This document shows, piece by piece, positions 1 through 9,300 of a stretch of DNA of 9,300 bases. Location: positions 1-9,300 of the forward strand of contig JACPQY010000051.1 in the NCBI GenBank assembly GCA_016190245.1, read 5' to 3'. The number at the start of each line of letters is the position of its first letter. Position 1 is the stretch's first letter. The position numbers were made by a program, and so were the translations under genes. The notes under the pieces were generated by a model. That model was not told the DNA's origin. It was given only the letters and a program-made list of their open reading frames with translations, and ran no database searches. The stretch is from Nitrospirota bacterium. Lineage in GTDB: Bacteria > JACPQY01.

Positions 1-3000
1 ACGCTGGTCTACGCCCCCCCCATTCCCTTCATAGAAACCTTTGACTATGGCCTCCCGGCGGACTGGTGGGTGATGCTCGAGCCCCCCGCCTCTGTCCAGT
101 CCCTGCCGGGCGAGGTCCGCTTCGACACCAGCCTCATCCCCCAAGGCCAGCCTGGAAACATGGTGATTGCCGGCCAGCCGTTCGGCGAGGCGTTCACGGT
201 GGACGGCCCCTTCACCATCTCCGCCGCCTTTGAAGTAGATGCCATCACCGGCCCCGCATCGTTCGGTTTCGACATGTTCGACCCAACCCAGCAGGACGGC
301 GCATCGTTCGGGAAGTTCTACTCGCACGGCGGCACGGGGGGAGATCAATCCTTCATGCTGGTCAGCGTCTCTCCGGAAGGCGAAGAGACGGTTGTGGTTG
401 ATCCGACCGGCATGGAAGCCGGTCCGGGCACCCGATGGACGTTCGAACTCTCCTACATCCCAGATCCGAACCCGGATCTGAGCCGCCTCGTCGGGCGGGC
501 GATCGAGACGGACACACAGACGCTCATCTCCGAGCAGACCATCCAGCCCATGGTCGTAGACTTCCCCGTCATCGTGATGGTCATAGCCGCAACGGCGGAG
601 TTGGGCGGCGACCCCGAGGCACCCCTCCCGGAAGACACACAGATAACCATGCGCGTGGACTCCATCGTCTCGGACTTCGTCACGCTGCCTCAGGCCTACG
701 GCCTCTCCCGCGCCATCCTTCAGGCGGATGAGACCGCCTACGAGTTCGTCCCCGTCCCGGAGGGCCGGCCGCCGCTCGGAAAAACCGGTGTGCTCTTCGT
801 GGGCGACCCAGCCCTTACCGAAGTGCCCATCTCCCCCGTGGCCACGACACCCACCGTAGTGCAAGGCGTGGACGGCACGCAAGACGTCCACGCCTATCTC
901 GTCACCGACCCCGCCCCCGAGCCCGATGCCCTTTCCACCATCTACTCACCTTTGGACGAGGCGATCTTGCGTTCGACGCTGGCAGACCACGGCTACGCCA
1001 CCACCTTCGTCGTGGACCACTACGTCGCCTCGATCTTCCTTCACAAAGGTTCGCAGGTTGACTACCTATGGAGCCTCCGCCCGCCATGGGAACCACCCCC
1101 CATGCCCCCTCCCAAACCGATCGCTGTGGCCGAGGGCTACGGCCCCATCGGCTCGCTCGTGCCGGTGGCGAGCCCGGATCAGCCCTTCACGGACACCTTC
1201 GACGATCAGGACGTCTGGTGGGACAACTGGACCAACCACTATTTCAGCACCCTGTCGAGGTCCCACGAAGACACGATCTTGGAACCGCGCGGGGAGACCC
1301 TCAACGACTACCTCATCCCGCGCCAGCAGCCCGGCTACGTGGTCCAATCGGCCGGCAAGCTCATCACGGAGGCGGTCCGACAGTATAACGGGGTCGTGGC
1401 CTCGCGCGCCGGCTTCGGGCTGGAGGGGCTCCAGTTCGAGGTCACCCTCACGCCGTATTTCGAACCGCTCAGCAAGTACAACGGGTTGTCCTATGGGCAA
1501 TTCACGGTCGGCATCGGACACTGGGATCCGGTGGAGCCGGGCCCGTGGCAGGACTTGGTGTGCAAGGTCTATTGCGACGTGTGGTCGGACACAACGGTTT
1601 GCACCTTCATGCCTGGGGGACGCAACTGGTCCACGAACACATGGGCCCAAGGCACGAAGGTCACGGCCAATTGGAGTCTCGCCGGCGGGGTCGGGAAATT
1701 CTGGATTCACGAACTCAACATCCCCGAGGACGTACCGTTGGAGGGCCCCTGCGAGACGGAGGTGGAGGAAAAAGACGAAGAAACGGGCGAGACGCGAATG
1801 GTGGAGAAAATCGGTCGGATCGTTCTCGCCTCATGGCTCGTGCCGACGGGAGATCAAAAGACCCCCCACGCATACGTCGTTTGGGACGATCTTGCCGCCA
1901 ACGAGCCGCCGGCGCGCGCGGCCGCGCTCTACGCATCTTCACCCCTTCCTCTTCTCCTGGACGGCGTGCCCTACCAGGACACGGATTTCACGCTCTCCTT
2001 CAACCTTCAAGTATACGCAAGCGCGGCCCTGGGTCTGCCCCTCTACCAGTACTTGTGGCCCCCCGAGGGGCACCGGCTCTTCGAGGACGTCGCCGGGCGC
2101 TACTTTGGTGGCGTGCCGGGTCCGCCGCGCGGCCACTGGCTCGCGCCGCTGGAGGAGGATCTCAAGATCTACCCCGTGGGGTGGGAGGCCGATGCCACGG
2201 CCTTCGTCAACATGGATGGGACGCCGGTGGCGTACATCAGCGGAGAGGCCCCGGTCCACGCCCTGTTCTGGACCGATCCCTCGAGCGGCAAGAAGGCCAC
2301 CGTCTACGGTGAGGCCCCCCTCGACCCCGTGATCCCTTGGCCTCAAGACGAGCCCCTGATCGTCATGGCCCCAGAGGGGAGCGATCCCACGTACCAGGGG
2401 ATTGATGCAGTGGCCGTGAACGTCTTCACGCCCATCCTCGACGGCGAAGGGGAACCGACAGGCGCCTATCGCTTTCGGTTGCCGCAGGTCCCGCCGGATC
2501 TCACAGGCATCTCGGTCCCGCCTGCCATCACCGTGCGAGTCGCCGACGGAGACCCCCTTCCCAAGACGGTGGGTGACTACCCCTCCGCCTGCCTGCGCCA
2601 AGACGGATCTATGCAATTGCATATGCCGGATCTCGTTCTCGGCTATCCCTCCGACCCCTTCCAGGCCATCGCCGTCAGAGCGGCCATGGATCGGCTGTGC
2701 ATCAAACCGGCCATGTACGCGACTTCCCATGACACCGTGGCGGCCATCGTGCAGGGCCAAAACGCACCCGCCCTCGAGGCCCGCAGCTTCGGCGAGGCGA
2801 CGATCACCGCGGACCTCGAGGGCCACACCGCGGCCTCCGCCGTCCGCGTCGTCTCCGTTCCCCCCCTGTCTCTTGGGGTTCCGACTCCCGAGGGTATTGT
2901 AGGGGCGGATTCCGACCCCCAGGAAGGGGGAAGTGCCGCGGGAGGACAGGAGTCCGGAGCGGCCGATCCGTCCGCGTCCGGACCGATGAGAATCGGTCCC

Positions 3001-6000
3001 TACAACCGGCCTGTAGGGGCGGATTCCGATCCGTCCGATCTCCTGCAATTCGTTTCGGCGGACGCCGACCGCCTCGAGCTCTCCATCCATCAGCCCCAAA
3101 CCGCCACGTACACCGTCAAGGCCCAACACAAGGTTGTCCTCCAGATGGAAGGCGTCGTATCCGCCTGCGAGAGCTATTCCCTTTCCGACAAAGCCCAGGT
3201 GCTCGGCCCCGTCATCTACCCCGTGCCTCCGGAAACCTGCGCGCTCTACGATGCCGTCGCCGACAACTTCATCCTCACCGCGCGGAAACGCAACGACAAC
3301 GACCAGGTCGAGTTCCCGCCCGGCAGCATAGACTCCGCGGGGAACCTCACGTTGGACGACGAGGACTTCCTCCAGCTCCCGCGTGGGATCTACTACTTCG
3401 CCTCCGTCACGATCAAGGAGCGCGCCAGGATCGGCGCCGAACAGGGCACGCGCATCGTCGTGGCCGGCGCGGTCACCCTTTCGGACTCCGCCTCCGCCGG
3501 GCGCCGGATCAAGTGGTTCGTGGACCAAGGGCCGATCGTTCTGAGCGGGGAAAGCAAGAGCGTGGGGGGCTTCCTCGCGCCGGGAGCGAGCGTCTCGCTC
3601 ACCGAGCGCGCCAGGATGTTCGGCTTGGTCTTTGCGAAGGACTATTCCGGCTCCGGCACGTCGCTCCTCACCATAGACGAGGAACGGCTCCCGGTCCCGT
3701 TCGGTGTTCCACTTGTGACACACCCGGACAAGTCCCGAGTCGAAGTCGCGATCACGCTGAACTACAAAGCCGTCGCTCTTGGCCCCTACGGCATAGATCC
3801 GCCAGTGGTAGGCGAGACCGCGCTCGAACTCCGAGACCTGGTGGTCCTGCGCGGAGACGAGCCGAGGGATGGGGAGGGATTCGTAACCGTTCAGTTCCCT
3901 GTCGCTTTCGACGGCCGCGATGCCGAGGGCAACCCTCTCCCCACGCCCGACCTCCCCGGCTACCAAGCCTATGCACCGGATGCCGCCATCGAGTACCGTT
4001 TGTGCCACGGCTCTGAACAAACGGTTCTCGGCTCCGTGTCCCTCACCGATGGCCTCCTCCTCGTGGACAACCTCCCGCCGGCTCTCAACGTGCTCACCCC
4101 GCTGCCGGACGCCCAAACGATCTTCACCTCCGCGCGCCTCCTCGCCTTCACCGACGACCCCTCCCAATCCGGCACCATCTTTCTTAACGACCTGCCGACC
4201 CCCGACTCACGACTCACGGGCCTCCTTCTCTCCACCGATCCCCTGTATCCCCCGCCCATGCCCGAAGGCCCCAACACTTGGTCCCTCACCGCCACCGATC
4301 CCCTGGGCAACCCCTCCACGCTCGATCTCACCCAAACTCTCGACTCCCGCCCGCCGCTCATCACCATCACGACCCCTTCTCCGAACTTCGCCACCAACCA
4401 GCCGACCTTGACCCTCGAGTTCGATGTCTCCGACGAGGTTTCGGGCCCCGATGCGGCCTCCATCACCGTCACCCGCTCCGGCTCCCTCGACGGATCCTCC
4501 GAAACCCTCCTCCCCACTTGCTCTCCTTCCGATCCGCTCACCGTTCACTGCTCACTGCTCGCACCCCTCCACGAAGGAACCAACTCCCTCCACATCGCCG
4601 CCTCCGACCTCGCGGGCAACGCCTCATCCACAGGTACGGTCGTAAAAAACGACACGACCCCGCCCGAGATCCGCCTCTACCCGCTCAATGGCGACTACCT
4701 CGCGGAGCAGGTCCTGGACCCATATGCCTCAGCGGGGAACTACTGTGCCCCCGTCGGCAGGCCAAGAGTGGTCTTCAGGATCTACGATCCCGAGCCCTCA
4801 GGCACGGTCTATGATATCGAGTCCGCCAGCGCCTCCTACCCAAAAGGCTACCTCGCGAAACTCCCCGCGGAAGGCTTCGTGGGCCCGCTCGCCTCAGGTT
4901 TCGACCTCGACAAGCTCGAGGTCTCGATCGTCGATGACCGACTGGTACAGGGCGAGCCGGTGACGCTCTACTGCACGGGCGGCTCCATCCAGTCGTGCGA
5001 AATCCCTGGGGGTCTCCCCGAGGGCTGCCTCGACCTCTCGATCCGCATCTTCGACTACGCAGGCAACGACTCCGTGGTGACGCAGACCTTCATCCTCGAT
5101 CGCACTCCCCCGGACGTGGCGATCGCGCACGAGCCCGCCGACATCTACCAGAAGGCGAACCAACTCGCCTACACGATCACCTACACCGAAAGCCTCCCGC
5201 CGGACGGCTGCGCTTGCGGCATCAACGCGGGCACCCATGCGGAGGAAGGCTATCGTCGAGTCCTGTTCTACAACAACGAGTACGGCGAAACCGACGACGT
5301 GCATGCCCCGGCCCAGATGGTCTTCACGCGTCTCACCAGGGTTCCGCTCGAAATCCCCGGCCTCAACTTCGCCGTGGGTGACCTGGAACTCAAGATGGAG
5401 TACGACGTCACCTTCCAGGAGGGCAAGGCGCAGATCCGAGGCAAGGTGTTGGATTTCGTCGGCTACGAAGGGAAGGGCTCGGATGACGTGATCGTTGACC
5501 AAAGCTACCCCGCGCCCGTATCCGATCCCCCCAACGGCGCCATCCTAAGCAGTCCGCCCCTCCTCATCGCCCTCCTGCCTTCGGAAGTCTATCCCCCCGG
5601 CTTCCCCGATCCCAACCCCCTCGACCCTCCCGGCCAACCGCAATTCAGCTCCGGCCTGAGCGAGGCGGAGATCCGCCTCACCATAGACGGCGCGCCCACC
5701 GCCCTGTTGCAGGTCTTCCACGACCACCCCTACCTCACGAACCAGGCCACCAGCGTCATGGGCACGCTCACGAGCGGGCAGCAGACCGAGGGGAGCCACA
5801 CCATCGAAGCCACCCTGCCCGACCGCGCGGGCAACGTCACCTTCTTTACCTCCACCTACTGTCAGGACGCGCAGCCGCCCGTCGTCACCATCGACGCTCC
5901 CTACGCGGGCCAGGTCTTCAACTTCATGCCCCTCCAACTCGATGCCAACGTGTCCGACCCCCAACCCGGCTGCGGAATGGACTGGATCAGCGTTGCGCCC

Positions 6001-9000
6001 CCGAACAACATCATCGAGGGACCGTTCATCGAGGGCGAACGCGTCAGCGCGCTGATGAATTTCGGGATAGGCACGCAAACGATCACCGTGCTGGCGCGCG
6101 ACAAGGCGGGGCACGTCACCACCGGCGCCAGGATCTTCGATGTCGTTCCCGTGGACCCCGAGATCGGAGCCTTCGTGGCCCCGCCGGGCGTGGGCGCTAC
6201 GCTCTACATCCCGCCGGGCGCCCTCCAGTACGAAACCGTGCCCATCTTGACGGATTTCTCCCTCGATGATGCAATAGCCCTCGTGGGCGAAGGCGTGTTC
6301 GGCCCACCGGGGCTTGGACCGTTTGGGTTGCTCAGCGAGGAAACGCTCACGTATGTCGGAGGGGCGAATGCAATCATCGGGGGCCAGACAACGGACGCAC
6401 TCTTGGAGCCGTGCGTGCTCAAGGAGTCCGGCTACGTGTACCCGTCCGATCGGCAGGTCCTCGTCGTTCGATCCTCCGGAATGGACGGCAACGGCGACGA
6501 CAACATGGACCTGATCGTGGTTGACGGCACCTACGATTCCGACCCCAGGGTGTGCGCCGCTCGGCTGGCCTCGTTCCCCGGCATGTTCACGGGCGACAAG
6601 TACATGGTCGCCGACCTGCCGGACCCATCGGTCGTCCTGGTGGGTGACATTCCCGAAGGCTACTCCCTCAAACCCCACCCCCAGGCCTGCAAGACCGCGA
6701 GCTTCTTCACCCTCCAGCCCGGCGCCGGCACCCGCTGGGCCTTCCCCGTCTGCAAATCCGAACTGCCCACCTTCGCCATCGACATCGTGGACGAGGATAC
6801 CGGCAAGACGGTCGGGTATGTCGAGGGGTTCGAGGACTCGGACGGCGACGGCGTGATCGAGGTGCCGGACTGCGACCTGGATGAGGGGTCACTCCAGGCG
6901 GTGAGTTTCCCCGAGGAGAAGATGGGCGGTCCCCCGGACGAGCTGAGCGCCGCCGAGGAGGAGTACCCCTCGTTCGAGGTGGACTACTCGGGGGCGATCA
7001 CGGACTCTCTGGACGTCGAGCAATCGATCGGCGGCATGGTGGACCGGTCCAACGGGGAATCGGCAGCGGCCAAGTGGATCCACCGGGGGCACAGCCGGCC
7101 CGGGGGGTCCCGCTTGCGTCTGCCTTCGACCTACATTGGGGGGATTACCGCCAACACTCGCGAGGACGAGGGGGCAAGGATTTTGACCCTCTCCGTGTGG
7201 CCCTTGAGCCGCGCCGATTCCGGCGAGGCGACGTGCAGCCTCTTGGGCCCGTCGAGCTATCGGTACCCAGCGGTCCGGCCCTCCACCTCGCCGGGCGATT
7301 CGCCCGCGGGTGCGCACGACGCCGAATGGGGCGCCGCCCAAGGCGTCCTGATCTACCCTTTGGACCACGAGCAGGGGGTTCCCGAATACTGCTACGGGGA
7401 CGGCGCCGAGGTGGACGGTCGGCCCTGCTTCATTGAATATGGCCACCAAGCCGGGGGAGACAAGGAGAGGGTGGAGTGCCGGGCCTGCGATCCCGGGATG
7501 ACGGGTTTGGACGCCTACGGCAAGCCTCGGATCGACGCCCTGGGCTGCGGGTCGGGCTGGTTCGATCCGGTGGATCCGTCCACGTGCCGCGTGAGCAGGC
7601 TCCAGAACCGCTTCATGCGGATGAAGCGCGCGGGGCTGAGCATGGTCACCGTACCCACGTACTGGAGAGAGATGGAGCCGCTCAAGGGCGCGGTGCCGCA
7701 TCCCTTCGATCGGGTCCCGAACGATGGTTGGGTGGACGGAGGGGACGACGAGAAGTTTGTGGACATGGATGCCTACGTGGTGATGGCGAAGCGGTACGGT
7801 TTCGATCTCGGGAGCCTCCTGGGGGCGGGTCCGCCGTATTGGGCCTCGAGCTGCTGCTTGAGCTTCGAGTGGTGGGATCGGGATCTGTGCCTGCGTTCCG
7901 ATCTGTCCAAGGAAACGGTCGAGACCCAATGTCTGCCCACCTGCGATGCCTTCGCCGGATACCATCGGGACTGGTACAACCGCGAGCGCGCCGGGTACTT
8001 GGGGCCGACGGAAGCATGCGAAACATCCACGGATTGCGCCTACAAGCTTGAGAACCAGTGCGTGCCGCCCGTGATCGCCGGATGCGCGCTCACGGGTGTC
8101 TGGCTGAACTGTGCCCCGGATCAGGACGATCTCGCCGCTCACGTGGCGCGCGTGGTGCAGTACTTCCGGCCCAACGGGACGCTGGCCACTCGGATGGGCT
8201 GGGGGTTTGACTACGGGATCACGAGCTGGGAGTTCAACGAGGAGCACAACTCGTCGGAAAGATTCGCCGTCCTCACCGATCTCCGCCCCACCGAGGGGCC
8301 CGGCTCGCCCGGCGACCCCCACGGCTGGCCGGGAACCGCGCTCATCTACTCCCCGCAGGAGTACAAGCGGCTCTTCAAACGGGTCTCGGACACGATCTGG
8401 TACGATGTGATCGGCTCGGATATTTGGTACGATCTCAAGACGCGCGTGGTGATTGGCGGGCCCCACGCGAGTATCGATTGGGGGGACTGCCCCTCGGACG
8501 ACTCGGACAACGAGTGGTTCTGGGAGGGTCAGGGGGAGGACCGCCTGGTCAACCTCGGGGTCGGTTGTTTCAACTCGCTCGACACCGGCCGGTTCTACGA
8601 GGTGATGGACGCGCCCACCGTGCCGCCGGGCGAGGGGTATCGAATCGACATTTCGGCTTTTCCCCGCATGCCTGTGCTGGGCCTGCAGGGCTTCCAGGCC
8701 GAGGGGCCCTCGATCGAGGAGGAGGCGCTCGGCCGGGGCAACGTGCACGATGTCCTCGTGACGCTGACAACCAACTTCCCGAACCACGAGCTCTGGATGA
8801 TGAACTTCGCCTCGCACTGCGATCCGCTGACGGACCCCGGGGCTGACTGCGGTGGCGGCTTGGACACGGCCCCCGGGCCGTACGCCCAGGCGGCCTATGG
8901 GGCTGGTCTCCTCGCCATGATGCCGGGGACGATCGCGAAGCGTGCGTTGTGGTTCGGCTTCTCGGGACTGGAGGGCGGCCAGCCGCCGATGCTCATCCAA

Positions 9001-9300
9001 ATCCCGACTCAGGCGCCCCTCTTCAAGCCCTCCTACCATGCGCTCGCGGTGGCCCCTCGGATCGAGGCCGTGCCCGGGCGGGACTACGAATTCCGGACGG
9101 GGCTGGAGCTCGGGGGGAACCTGCCGAGGGCCTATTTGCAGATCGTGCTCGATGAGGGTCGGAGCTACCACCTCAACACGTGTGCGAAAGTGTTGGACGT
9201 GGCGTGCAAGCCGCTGGGCTCCCCCGAGGGGTGCTACGACCCCTGTCAGAGCGCCGGGGACCCCGGAGCGTGTCGGGATGCCTACGCCCAAGTGGCCGGG
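1..9300 (+). CDS. Giant multidomain, probably exported protein with Ig-like stalk and glycoside-hydrolase-like module (internal fragment, both ends open)
   Basis: Frame 1 is open from base 1 to base 9300 (3,100 codons, no TAA/TAG/TGA seen when read codon by codon). It begins and ends mid-gene, so start, signal peptide, anchor and stop are outside the window. The frame is the real one because third positions are strongly G/C, and the translation shows recognisable secreted-protein motifs throughout: PP...VTI starts and D.AGN ends of Ig-like domains, LPRGIYYF of a helix-forming module, DSDGDG loops, and a WEFNEEHN motif of the type that carries the acid/base Glu in clan GH-A hydrolases. I see no predicted membrane segment in the window. 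Cysteines are sparse at first (25 in residues 1-2460) and dense later (25 in residues 2461-3100), which fits disulfides and an extracytoplasmic location. Role inferred: surface or secreted adhesin/enzyme acting on polysaccharide. The family as a whole is not one I recognise. Confidence 0.95.
22..681 (+). other. Concanavalin-A/LamG-like beta-sandwich domain 1 (residues ~8-227)
   Basis: The segment opens with IPFIETFDYGLPADWW, the pattern of an F.D.FD..L...W first strand that is common in LamG/ConA-like lectin and glucanase folds. Alternating hydrophobic strands follow (GEVRFDTSLI, FTISAAFEVD, ASFGFDMFD, RWTFELSYI, PVIVMVIAATAEL), and it ends with TMRVDSIVSDF, like the last strand that carries a VD.I motif in these sandwiches. 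There is no cysteine in it. Such domains usually bind carbohydrate or serve as structural modules; no binding residue can be named here. The fold call rests on pattern only. Confidence 0.45.
682..1182 (+). other. Spacer with proline-rich stretch, no domain recognised (residues 228-394)
   Basis: This stretch joins the two sandwich domains. It has several short beta-like runs (GVLFVGDPAL, TTFVVDHYVASIFL, VDYLWSL) and then a proline-rich piece at residues 361-373 (PPWEPPPMPPPKP), which looks like an extended hinge. I recognise no family. Confidence 0.4.
1183..1740 (+). other. Concanavalin-A/LamG-like beta-sandwich domain 2 (residues ~395-580)
   Basis: It restarts the same architecture as domain 1: PFTDTFDDQDVWWDNWTN matches the F.D.FDD....W opening. 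Strands follow (GYVVQSAGKLITEA, GLQFEVTLTPYF, YGQFTVGIGHWD, TKVTANWSLAGG), and GKFWIHELNIPED ends it. Three close cysteines (C521, C525, C534) in LVCKVYCDVWSDTTVC are the first in the window. The end is placed before the acidic EGPCETEVEEKDEETGE loop. It is probably a substrate-binding or structural sandwich; this is inferred from strand pattern, not from conserved binding residues. Confidence 0.45.
1741..2897 (+). other. Unassigned beta-rich region with a highly charged loop (residues 581-966)
   Basis: It begins with a Glu/Lys-rich loop (residues 581-604, including EVEEKDEETGETR) and continues as alternating beta-like and Pro/Gly-turn sequence (IVLASWLVP, HAYVVWDDL, FTLSFNLQVYA, AYRFRLPQVPP, ITVRVADGD). 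The last part, EATITADLEGHTAASAVRVVSVPPL, looks like the closing strands of an Ig-like or invasin-like domain directly before the repeat cluster. I cannot name any family here. Confidence 0.35.
2980..3004 (-). repeat. Repeat unit B, perfect hairpin
   Basis: GGACCGAT (2980-2987) and ATCGGTCC (2992-2999) are exact reverse complements around the four-base loop GAGA. Read on the minus strand the unit starts TGTAGGGACCGATTC and matches unit C at 20 of 25 positions. The stem is uninterrupted at 8 base pairs. There is no T-run after it, so it is not a terminator. Confidence 0.85.
3012..3036 (+). repeat. Repeat unit C, hairpin with one G-T wobble
   Basis: GGGCGGAT (3017-3024) pairs with ATCCGTCC (3029-3036) around the loop TCCG, giving 8 pairs of which one is G-T. 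Compared with unit B the fifth stem pair is G-C instead of C-G, a double change that keeps pairing. Confidence 0.8.
3037..3312 (+). other. Unassigned segment between repeat cluster and helix-like module (residues 1013-1104)
   Basis: Sequence such as DRLELSIHQPQTATYTVKAQ and HKVVLQMEGVVSACESYSL is beta-like, with cysteines C1056 and C1080 that could pair. LSDKAQVLGPVIYPVPPETC and FILTARKRNDND follow. It may be the N-terminal flank of the DUF7305-like module, since such modules often start with PP..P...... strands. No firm family. Confidence 0.35.
3313..3690 (+). other. DUF7305/bactofilin-like beta-helix module (residues ~1105-1230)
   Basis: The order of motifs fits this type well: LTLDDEDFLQLPRGIYYF (the L.LPPGTYYF entry strand, G1129, Y1131-Y1132-F1133), ASVTIKERARIGAE, GTRIVVAGAVTLSDSASAG, then GPIVLSGESKSVGGFLAPGASVSLTERARMFGLVFAKD. 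The last piece corresponds to the family's pattern of short rungs ending in YAPGA.V.L.G....G..... (here FLAPGASVSL, A1193-P1194-G1195). Such segments form a right-handed stack of short strands and are found in large surface or pilus-related proteins of delta-proteobacteria-like groups. This is family knowledge recalled from motif order, not a search result. Confidence 0.6.
3691..4065 (+). other. Unassigned beta-rich linker domain (residues 1231-1355)
   Basis: It contains strands such as SRVEVAITLNYKAVAL, TALELRDLVVLRG, EGFVTVQFPVAFDG and TVLGSVSLTDGLLLVD, with one cysteine (C1335). FDGRDAEGNPLPTPDLPG resembles the D..GNP.. turn of Ig-like stalk domains, so this could be a divergent first member of the array that follows. 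Confidence 0.35.
4066..4344 (+). other. Bacterial Ig-like domain A (residues ~1356-1448)
   Basis: It opens with NLPPALNVLTPLPDAQTIF and closes with NTWSLTATDPLGNPSTLDLT, whose D.LGN (D1433-N1437) is the typical turn before the last strand of Ig-like stalk domains. There are no cysteines. Role: rigid spacer or adhesive repeat. Confidence 0.6.
4345..4650 (+). other. Bacterial Ig-like domain B (residues ~1449-1550)
   Basis: SRPPLITITTPSPNFATNQP is a standard opening (PP.ITI..P). HIAASDLAGNASSTGTVV ends it, with D1536-L-A-G-N1540. The paired cysteines C1507 and C1517 lie in one loop. Confidence 0.7.
4651..5097 (+). other. Bacterial Ig-like domain C, long (residues ~1551-1699)
   Basis: DTTPPEIRLYPLNGDYL opens and RIFDYAGNDSVVTQTFIL closes it (D1685-Y-A-G-N1689). 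At about 149 residues it is well above the 80-100 usual for this type. The extra length holds cysteines C1582, C1658, C1666 and C1676, so it may have a disulfide-held insertion. Confidence 0.65.
5098..5496 (+). other. Bacterial Ig-like domain D, divergent end (residues ~1700-1832)
   Basis: DRTPPDVAIAHEPADIYQ opens it canonically. The closing motif is degenerate: KVLDFVGYEGKGSDDVIVD replaces the expected D.AGN turn. A tight Cys pair, C1737-A-C1739, sits in the loop DGCACG. Confidence 0.55.
5497..5865 (+). other. Bacterial Ig-like domain E (residues ~1833-1955)
   Basis: It starts at QSYPAPVSDPPNGAILSSP and ends HTIEATLPDRAGNVTFFTST (D1941-R-A-G-N1945). A Pro-rich loop (PPGFPDPNPLDPPGQP) lengthens it, and the middle strand AEIRLTIDGAPTALLQV is typical of Ig-like domains that carry a variable-name IDG turn. 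Confidence 0.65.
5866..6150 (+). other. Bacterial Ig-like domain F (residues ~1956-2050)
   Basis: DAQPPVVTIDAPYAGQVFN opens and TQTITVLARDKAGHVTTGAR closes it, with D2034-K-A-G-H2038. The usual final Asn is His. C1991 is its only cysteine, and could pair with C1954 just upstream. Confidence 0.65.
6151..6900 (+). other. IPPGAL module with two Asp-rich loops (residues ~2051-2300)
   Basis: After domain F the sequence GATLYIPPGALQYETVPIL matches the IPPGAL...T.I motif seen in ZU5-like and other surface-protein modules. Two Asp-rich loops follow: DGNGDDNMD (residues 2162-2170, bases 6484-6510), as in FG-GAP/VCBS-type calcium loops, and DSDGDGVIE (2279-2287, bases 6835-6861), which then runs into VPDCDLDEG like thrombospondin type-3 or EF-hand-like loops. 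Calcium binding is inferred from the Asp spacing. The module ends as the base composition starts to change. Confidence 0.5.
6901..7587 (+). other. Variable linker and N-terminal flank of the barrel (residues 2301-2529)
   Basis: An acidic stretch (PEEKMGGPPDELSAAEEEYP, then FEVDYSGAITDSLDVEQ) is followed by a basic, Gly/Arg-rich one (KWIHRGHSRPGGSRLRLP). A short beta-like section (ARILTLSVWPL, GVLIYPLDH) and a Cys-containing loop region follow (C2464, C2476, C2493, C2496, C2516, C2529). In frame and uninterrupted, but no family recognised. It could be a capping or sugar-binding piece of the hydrolase-like module. Confidence 0.35.
7588..9105 (+). other. Clan GH-A (GH39/GH5-like) glycoside-hydrolase-type barrel (residues ~2530-3035)
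   Basis: The motif order follows a GH-A beta/alpha barrel. RFMRMKRAGLSMVTVPTYWREMEP resembles a first strand with W..IEP. VDMDAYVVMAKRYGFDLGSL and GPPYWASS match the next helix and the P.WA strand end. LAAHVARVVQYF then leads to GITSWEFNEEHN, which corresponds to WE.WNEPN; N2746-E2747 would be the acid/base pair. VVIGGP follows. NHELWMMNFASH offers E2930 as the nucleophile candidate. YAQAAYGAGLLAMMPGTIAKRALWFGFSG fits the last helix and strand, and FKPSYHALAVAPRIEAV fits the end of the barrel. Expected role: cleavage of glycosidic bonds outside the cell. The large gap between the two candidate Glu (183 residues, against about 117 in GH39 xylosidase) and the departures WNEPN to FNEEHN leave open an inactive, binding-only relative. 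Confidence 0.6.
7852..8112 (+). other. Cys-rich insertion inside the barrel (residues 2618-2704)
   Basis: Ten cysteines lie in 87 residues, between the PPYWAS strand and the acid/base strand: C2618, C2619, C2630, C2644, C2648, C2673, C2679, C2687, C2695 and C2704. EACETSTDCAYKLENQCVPP resembles the C.....C.......C spacing of small disulfide knots seen in myxobacterial secreted proteins. A disulfide-held loop over the active-site face is a plausible reading. Confidence 0.55.
9106..9300 (+). other. Cys-rich tail continuing beyond the window (residues 3036-3100)
   Basis: After LELGGNLPRAYLQIVLDEG come five cysteines (C3061, C3069, C3078, C3082, C3091) in Gly/Pro-rich sequence. The frame is open at base 9300. 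Possibly the start of another disulfide-rich domain or a C-terminal extension of the barrel. Confidence 0.5.

Follow-up and report, generated by a model that had tools for sequence, protein, structure and literature searches.

How a cluster of hairpin repeats came to be read in frame inside a very long open reading frame, and whether it represents a mobile repeat turned into protein sequence, is the question raised by the window analysed here, a stretch of 9300 bases. The window is an entire contig (G000:C40) of a draft genome (3.29 Mb, 86 contigs, 84.8% complete) and consists of a single frame without a stop throughout. The product of this frame has an Ig-like match (Big_13), and weak, sub-threshold DUF7305 and adhesive-like matches lie 3' of the repeat block; the frame is predicted to encode a giant modular protein. 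A single-sequence structure model of the protein (mean pLDDT 37) was uninformative and was left unused.

The repeats form an array of three units, R1 to R3. A sequence-only reading of the locus had described two exact copies of an 18-mer (2898-2915 and 3012-3029) flanking an inverted, related hairpin. Both copies are present, and so is the hairpin, which lies on the minus strand at 2980-3003. The block had been given as 141 bases or 47 codons; measured from the GTAG of R1 to the last stem base of R3, it spans 138 nt or 46 codons. No stop interrupts the frame within the block or anywhere else on the contig, and the peptide is indeed rich in Gly, Ser, Asp and Pro, in the order VGADSDP...-AS-GPMRIGPY-NRP-VGADSDPS, where GPMRIGPY is the plus-strand translation of R2. 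The lengths of all parts (75+6+24+9+24 nt) are divisible by three, and the closing arm of R1 is at 2967-2973. The 24-nt unit is free of stops in five frames and barred in the sixth, where GTAG reads as a TAG stop; the repeat is therefore easily translated, and stop-free read-through is unremarkable by itself. The repeat stretch folds more strongly than its shuffles (z -3.0), and chance matches to the 18-mer at up to three mismatches averaged 0.02 in dinucleotide shuffles of the window. An origin of R1 as a REP split by a later 51-nt insertion was considered and dropped, since about a dozen other copies show long, structured loops at this very position.

Features of the window and predicted peptides of the repeat block
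Feature	Position	Strand	Description
Host open frame	1-9300	+	3100 codons, open at both contig ends
In-frame REP block	2899-3036	+	138 nt = 46 codons; reads VGADSDPQEGGSAAGGQESGAADPSASGPMRIGPYNRPVGADSDPS
R1, long-loop REP	2899-2973	+	75 nt = 25 codons; GTAG plus stem GGGGCGGA / TCCGTCC with structured extra loop; arms paired in the fold
Spacer of head-head pair R1/R2	2974-2979	+	6 nt GCGTCC; reads Ala-Ser
R2, short REP	2980-3003	-	GTAGGGACCGATTCTCATCGGTCC; perfect stem; 0 mismatches to consensus
R2/R3 spacer	3004-3012	+	9 nt AACCGGCCT; reads Asn-Arg-Pro
R3, short REP	3013-3036	+	GTAGGGGCGGATTCCGATCCGTCC; reads VGADSDPS; 0 mismatches to consensus
Predicted tryptic peptides			VVSVPPLSLGVPTPEGIVGADSDPQEGGSAAGGQESGAADPSASGPMR, IGPYNRPVGADSDPSDLLQFVSADADR
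Heptamer array (CGACTCA)n	4203-4218	+	within PTPDSRLT; unrelated to REP; 66 places in the genome vs 18 for the control
Heptamer array (GCTCACT)n	4536-4560	+	within DPLTVHCSLLA; 50 places in the genome vs 0 for the control, many from one large array

The 18-mer itself was rejected as the repeat unit, its only two exact copies in the genome being those of the window. Allowing three mismatches, 28 places were found in the genome against one for the reversed control, and reading these 28 places yielded a consensus 24-nt unit, GTAGGGRCNNATTCYNATNNGTCC, which consists of GTAG followed by an 8-bp stem with a four-base loop. This unit occurs in 52 copies in the genome against none for its reversed control, so that the genome-wide count proposed in the sequence-only reading revealed a repeat family and not a unique sequence. 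REP-rich genomes typically hold hundreds of copies, more than the 52 found here. The 9-mer TGTAGGGGC was rejected as a marker because it is not enriched in this genome (28 places against 82 in the reversed control). In addition to R1/R2, nine head-head pairs, mostly 56 nt in length, and several tail-tail pairs of short units were observed; in a long-loop form, an additional structured segment separates ATTCYNA from the closing arm. Stem covariation was 0.363 against 0.134 in shuffled sequences and collapsed in slid versions; 95.7% of the stem cells were paired and 30 were changed on both sides, the covariation being visible mainly at columns 8-10 because the pattern used to gather the sequences freed four stem positions and fixed most of the others. 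The family thus has GTAG directly 5' of a short palindrome, compensatory stem changes and inverted pairs or groups (BIME). As GTAG, a covarying stem and head-head pairs are the defining features of GTAG REPs and BIMEs (PMC3733652, PMC8266576), the repeat of the window is a REP.

No match to the repeat was found in Rfam. Among 98 genomes searched with one mismatch allowed, clean copies were present only in the sister genome G001, and two others had one single-mismatch match each; a strict REP pattern had no match in the GTDB r220 species genomes, where records near the window's own may be omitted. The family therefore appears, as judged from these searches, to be restricted to this lineage. Its copies are dispersed and mostly intergenic: only 4 of 37 clusters had coding-like flanks in one stop-free frame (the window, two on C84 and one on C76) in a census based on fetched flanks and codon score rather than gene calling. 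At one site, C74:3166-3189 (minus strand; about 1494-1517 of locus L050), the REP starts exactly where a coding-like frame ends, and its GTAG, giving a TAG stop (KYLERMVKKLQLK-stop), seems to end a gene.

The coding character of the block was assessed with a codon score for which 74 long frames of the fetched loci, the window's own frame included, served as training set. To either side, in the same frame, values were about 0.3-0.7, whereas the block itself scored -0.03 against 0.42 +/- 0.14. This is the lowest value of any 46-codon stretch; beyond the reach of the block, no 46-codon window of the 3100-codon frame scores as low. Such a minimum is as expected for former non-coding DNA, which the block resembles.

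The same REP is read in frame in unrelated proteins, namely those of the window, a multihaem cytochrome c gene, an RHS-repeat gene and an Ig-like gene of G001. The cytochrome gene, on C84, has two in-frame sites, and its array encodes VGANSGAS-ES-GPMRIGPY-EPRVRR-VGTDSDPS; order and frame are identical to those of the window array and GPMRIGPY is found in both, although the proteins are unrelated. Cytochrome homologues without the repeat (G050, G025, G097 and others) align on both sides of these sites and identify them as linkers of variable length. In the RHS-repeat gene on C76, the linker from LTLVT to TVSYSYG exceeds that of the sister repeats by about 20 residues. The Ig-like domain of G001 reads ATFQF-VGTDSNPSAPV-SFQC, its sister domains ASFTF-TSPESTA-RFEC and ASFSF-SAPDSGA-TFEC. 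In all three genes the REPs occupy variable linkers or loops that exceed in length those of most homologues or sister repeats. The repeat does not purely lengthen the linker in the cytochrome and Ig-like genes but takes the place of part of it. Beside the in-frame REP of the Ig-like gene (G001:C36 near 7521; L145, L166), a second GTAG hairpin, GTAGGGGCGGGCTTGCCCGCCC, reads VGAGLPAL in frame.

REPs are not the only repeats in these frames: that of the window also holds the heptamer arrays, and that of the cytochrome gene a larger repeat, a situation less usual than REPs within genes. The larger repeat, GPGGPCTASAGRATRVRRGIERCGPGGPCTRAPGESMDSEPLQRECADR, is likewise in frame (L097:1361-4156, minus strand; P0001 residues about 743-790) and sits exactly between CDYCH and SLRALGLGTD, where the homologue L148 reads CYSCHSSQKALGLGTE; related copies are found at C71:67311, C79:78330 and C72:16168. 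A minus-strand frame of L097 that reaches base 1 of C84 has heptamer arrays near its likely start and yields a hydrophobic stretch, HRSLLTAVYLLLTVHCFLFPAC, which is similar to a lipoprotein signal peptide and would be built from repeat DNA.

No homologue spanning the window block was found: the only matches were a weak one in G015, 3' of the block, and non-collinear ones in G001, and a scan of genome contigs with the region adjoining the block gave no homologue of the block either. The genome contains eight Y1_Tnp (RAYT-like) domains (L057-L064), and their presence supports a spread of the REP. In a search for a REPtron, none of the eight was flanked by a cognate REP in this draft of about 85% completeness, and the mobiliser is possibly encoded in the missing 15%. 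Four of the RAYT-like proteins were scanned and gave REP_Tyr_transpos matches below the model cut-off; among these, a further match, to the C-terminal region of DnaA, was given by L059 and, weakly, by L061 and L062.

Taken together, these observations make it highly probable that the block is a three-unit GTAG REP array (the head-head pair R1/R2 plus R3) lying in an inter-domain linker and read as protein, likely spread in the RAYT manner and serving as a near-neutral spacer. The proposal of a mobile repeat turned into protein is thereby supported in part: the REP cluster in a real coding frame, its non-coding-like codon statistics and the recurrence of the same repeat in frame in other genes agree with it; for mobility, it is the family resemblance that speaks. 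We infer that the REP was mobile, that it was inserted at the window site and that the block is translated. A single-stranded element of GTAG plus hairpin may have been spread by a RAYT-type HUH transposase and may have landed in a permissive linker of a modular protein gene, the array growing afterwards by recombination or not at all. The block would have persisted through the openness of its unit and the frame-keeping total length. The result would be a hydrophilic spacer rich in Gly, Ser, Asp and Pro that is in all likelihood neutral or almost neutral; since the peptide is hydrophilic and linker-like, near-neutral lengthening of the linker is the simplest outcome.

An alternative is that selection has kept the REP peptides, long modular extracellular proteins using frame-compatible variants as ready-made linkers. 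In this genome a single frame (VG-x-x-S) is shared by all five in-gene REPs of short form or GTA frame, the pair yields the identical peptide GPMRIGPY in two genes, and the host proteins are all modular; moreover, the spacer measures 6 nt in both head-head pairs that lie within genes but 8 nt in 7 of the 8 others. The common frame and the 6-nt spacers hint at selection, but the numbers are small (2 against 8 pairs, Fisher p = 0.067), the clusters are not independent, and the mere survival of an intact gene equally demands a frame-preserving length. We regard this explanation as improbable. A broader version, in which several families of repeats, among them REPs and heptamer arrays as well as at least one larger repeat, would form a shared in-frame linker supply for giant modular proteins, with compatible variants kept by selection, is speculative and rather unlikely.

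It is very improbable that the giant frame belongs to a pseudogene, decaying or untranslated, in which the block is open by accident. Its start and stop are unseen, both ends lying beyond the contig, and it holds at least three kinds of non-coding-type repeats; yet decay would introduce stops and frameshifts, and the frame has 3100 stop-free codons with a coding-like codon score on either side of the block. Misjoining of a repeat array into the gene during assembly deserves still less credence. Repeats can mislead assemblers and the draft is fragmented, but the block is short, the same frame resumes beyond it with a strong coding score, and a like pattern is seen in three contigs as well as in an independent genome.

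Repeats of this kind have been described before. GTAG REPs carry GTAG at one end, a 6-9 bp stem and complementary stem variants, form head-head pairs and groups, and are mostly intergenic, with some in frame within genes (Di Nocera et al., 2013; PMC3733652). According to the same work, in-gene GTAG and CGTC REP clusters encode 43-82 residues in some species, GTAG supplies the TAG stop to neighbouring genes, and replication and repair genes are stressed as hosts. The present family shares the GTAG tag, the stem variants, the head-head pairs, the mostly intergenic location and the occasional in-frame copy; it differs in a unit sequence confined to this lineage in the searches made, in a long-loop form that joins the array, and in hosts of modular extracellular type (Ig-like, RHS, multihaem cytochrome). 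Rickettsia palindromic elements, of which RPE-4 and RPE-6 carry a CGTC tag and RPE-1 is longer (PMC3733652), are likewise short palindromic repeats that lie in frame in protein genes and give similar peptides in unrelated proteins, but the present unit has a GTAG tag, another sequence and another host. The REPs of E. coli and Stenotrophomonas, with their REPtrons and TnpA-REP, consist of GTAG and a short near-perfect palindrome in inverted pairs (BIMEs) (PMC8266576); GTAG, palindrome and inverted pairs are common to both, and RAYT-type HUH transposases are present here as well, although no REP-flanked RAYT gene was found in this draft genome. From an isolated uncultured lineage, the locus adds a clear example of a hairpin repeat serving as protein sequence in unrelated genes. 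Since the repeat has three host genes in this genome and one in the sister genome, and homologues lacking it exist for some of them, the fate of the insertions, as neutral or selected linkers, can be compared across sites. What is new is a REP family and a host lineage for an already described, uncommon phenomenon.
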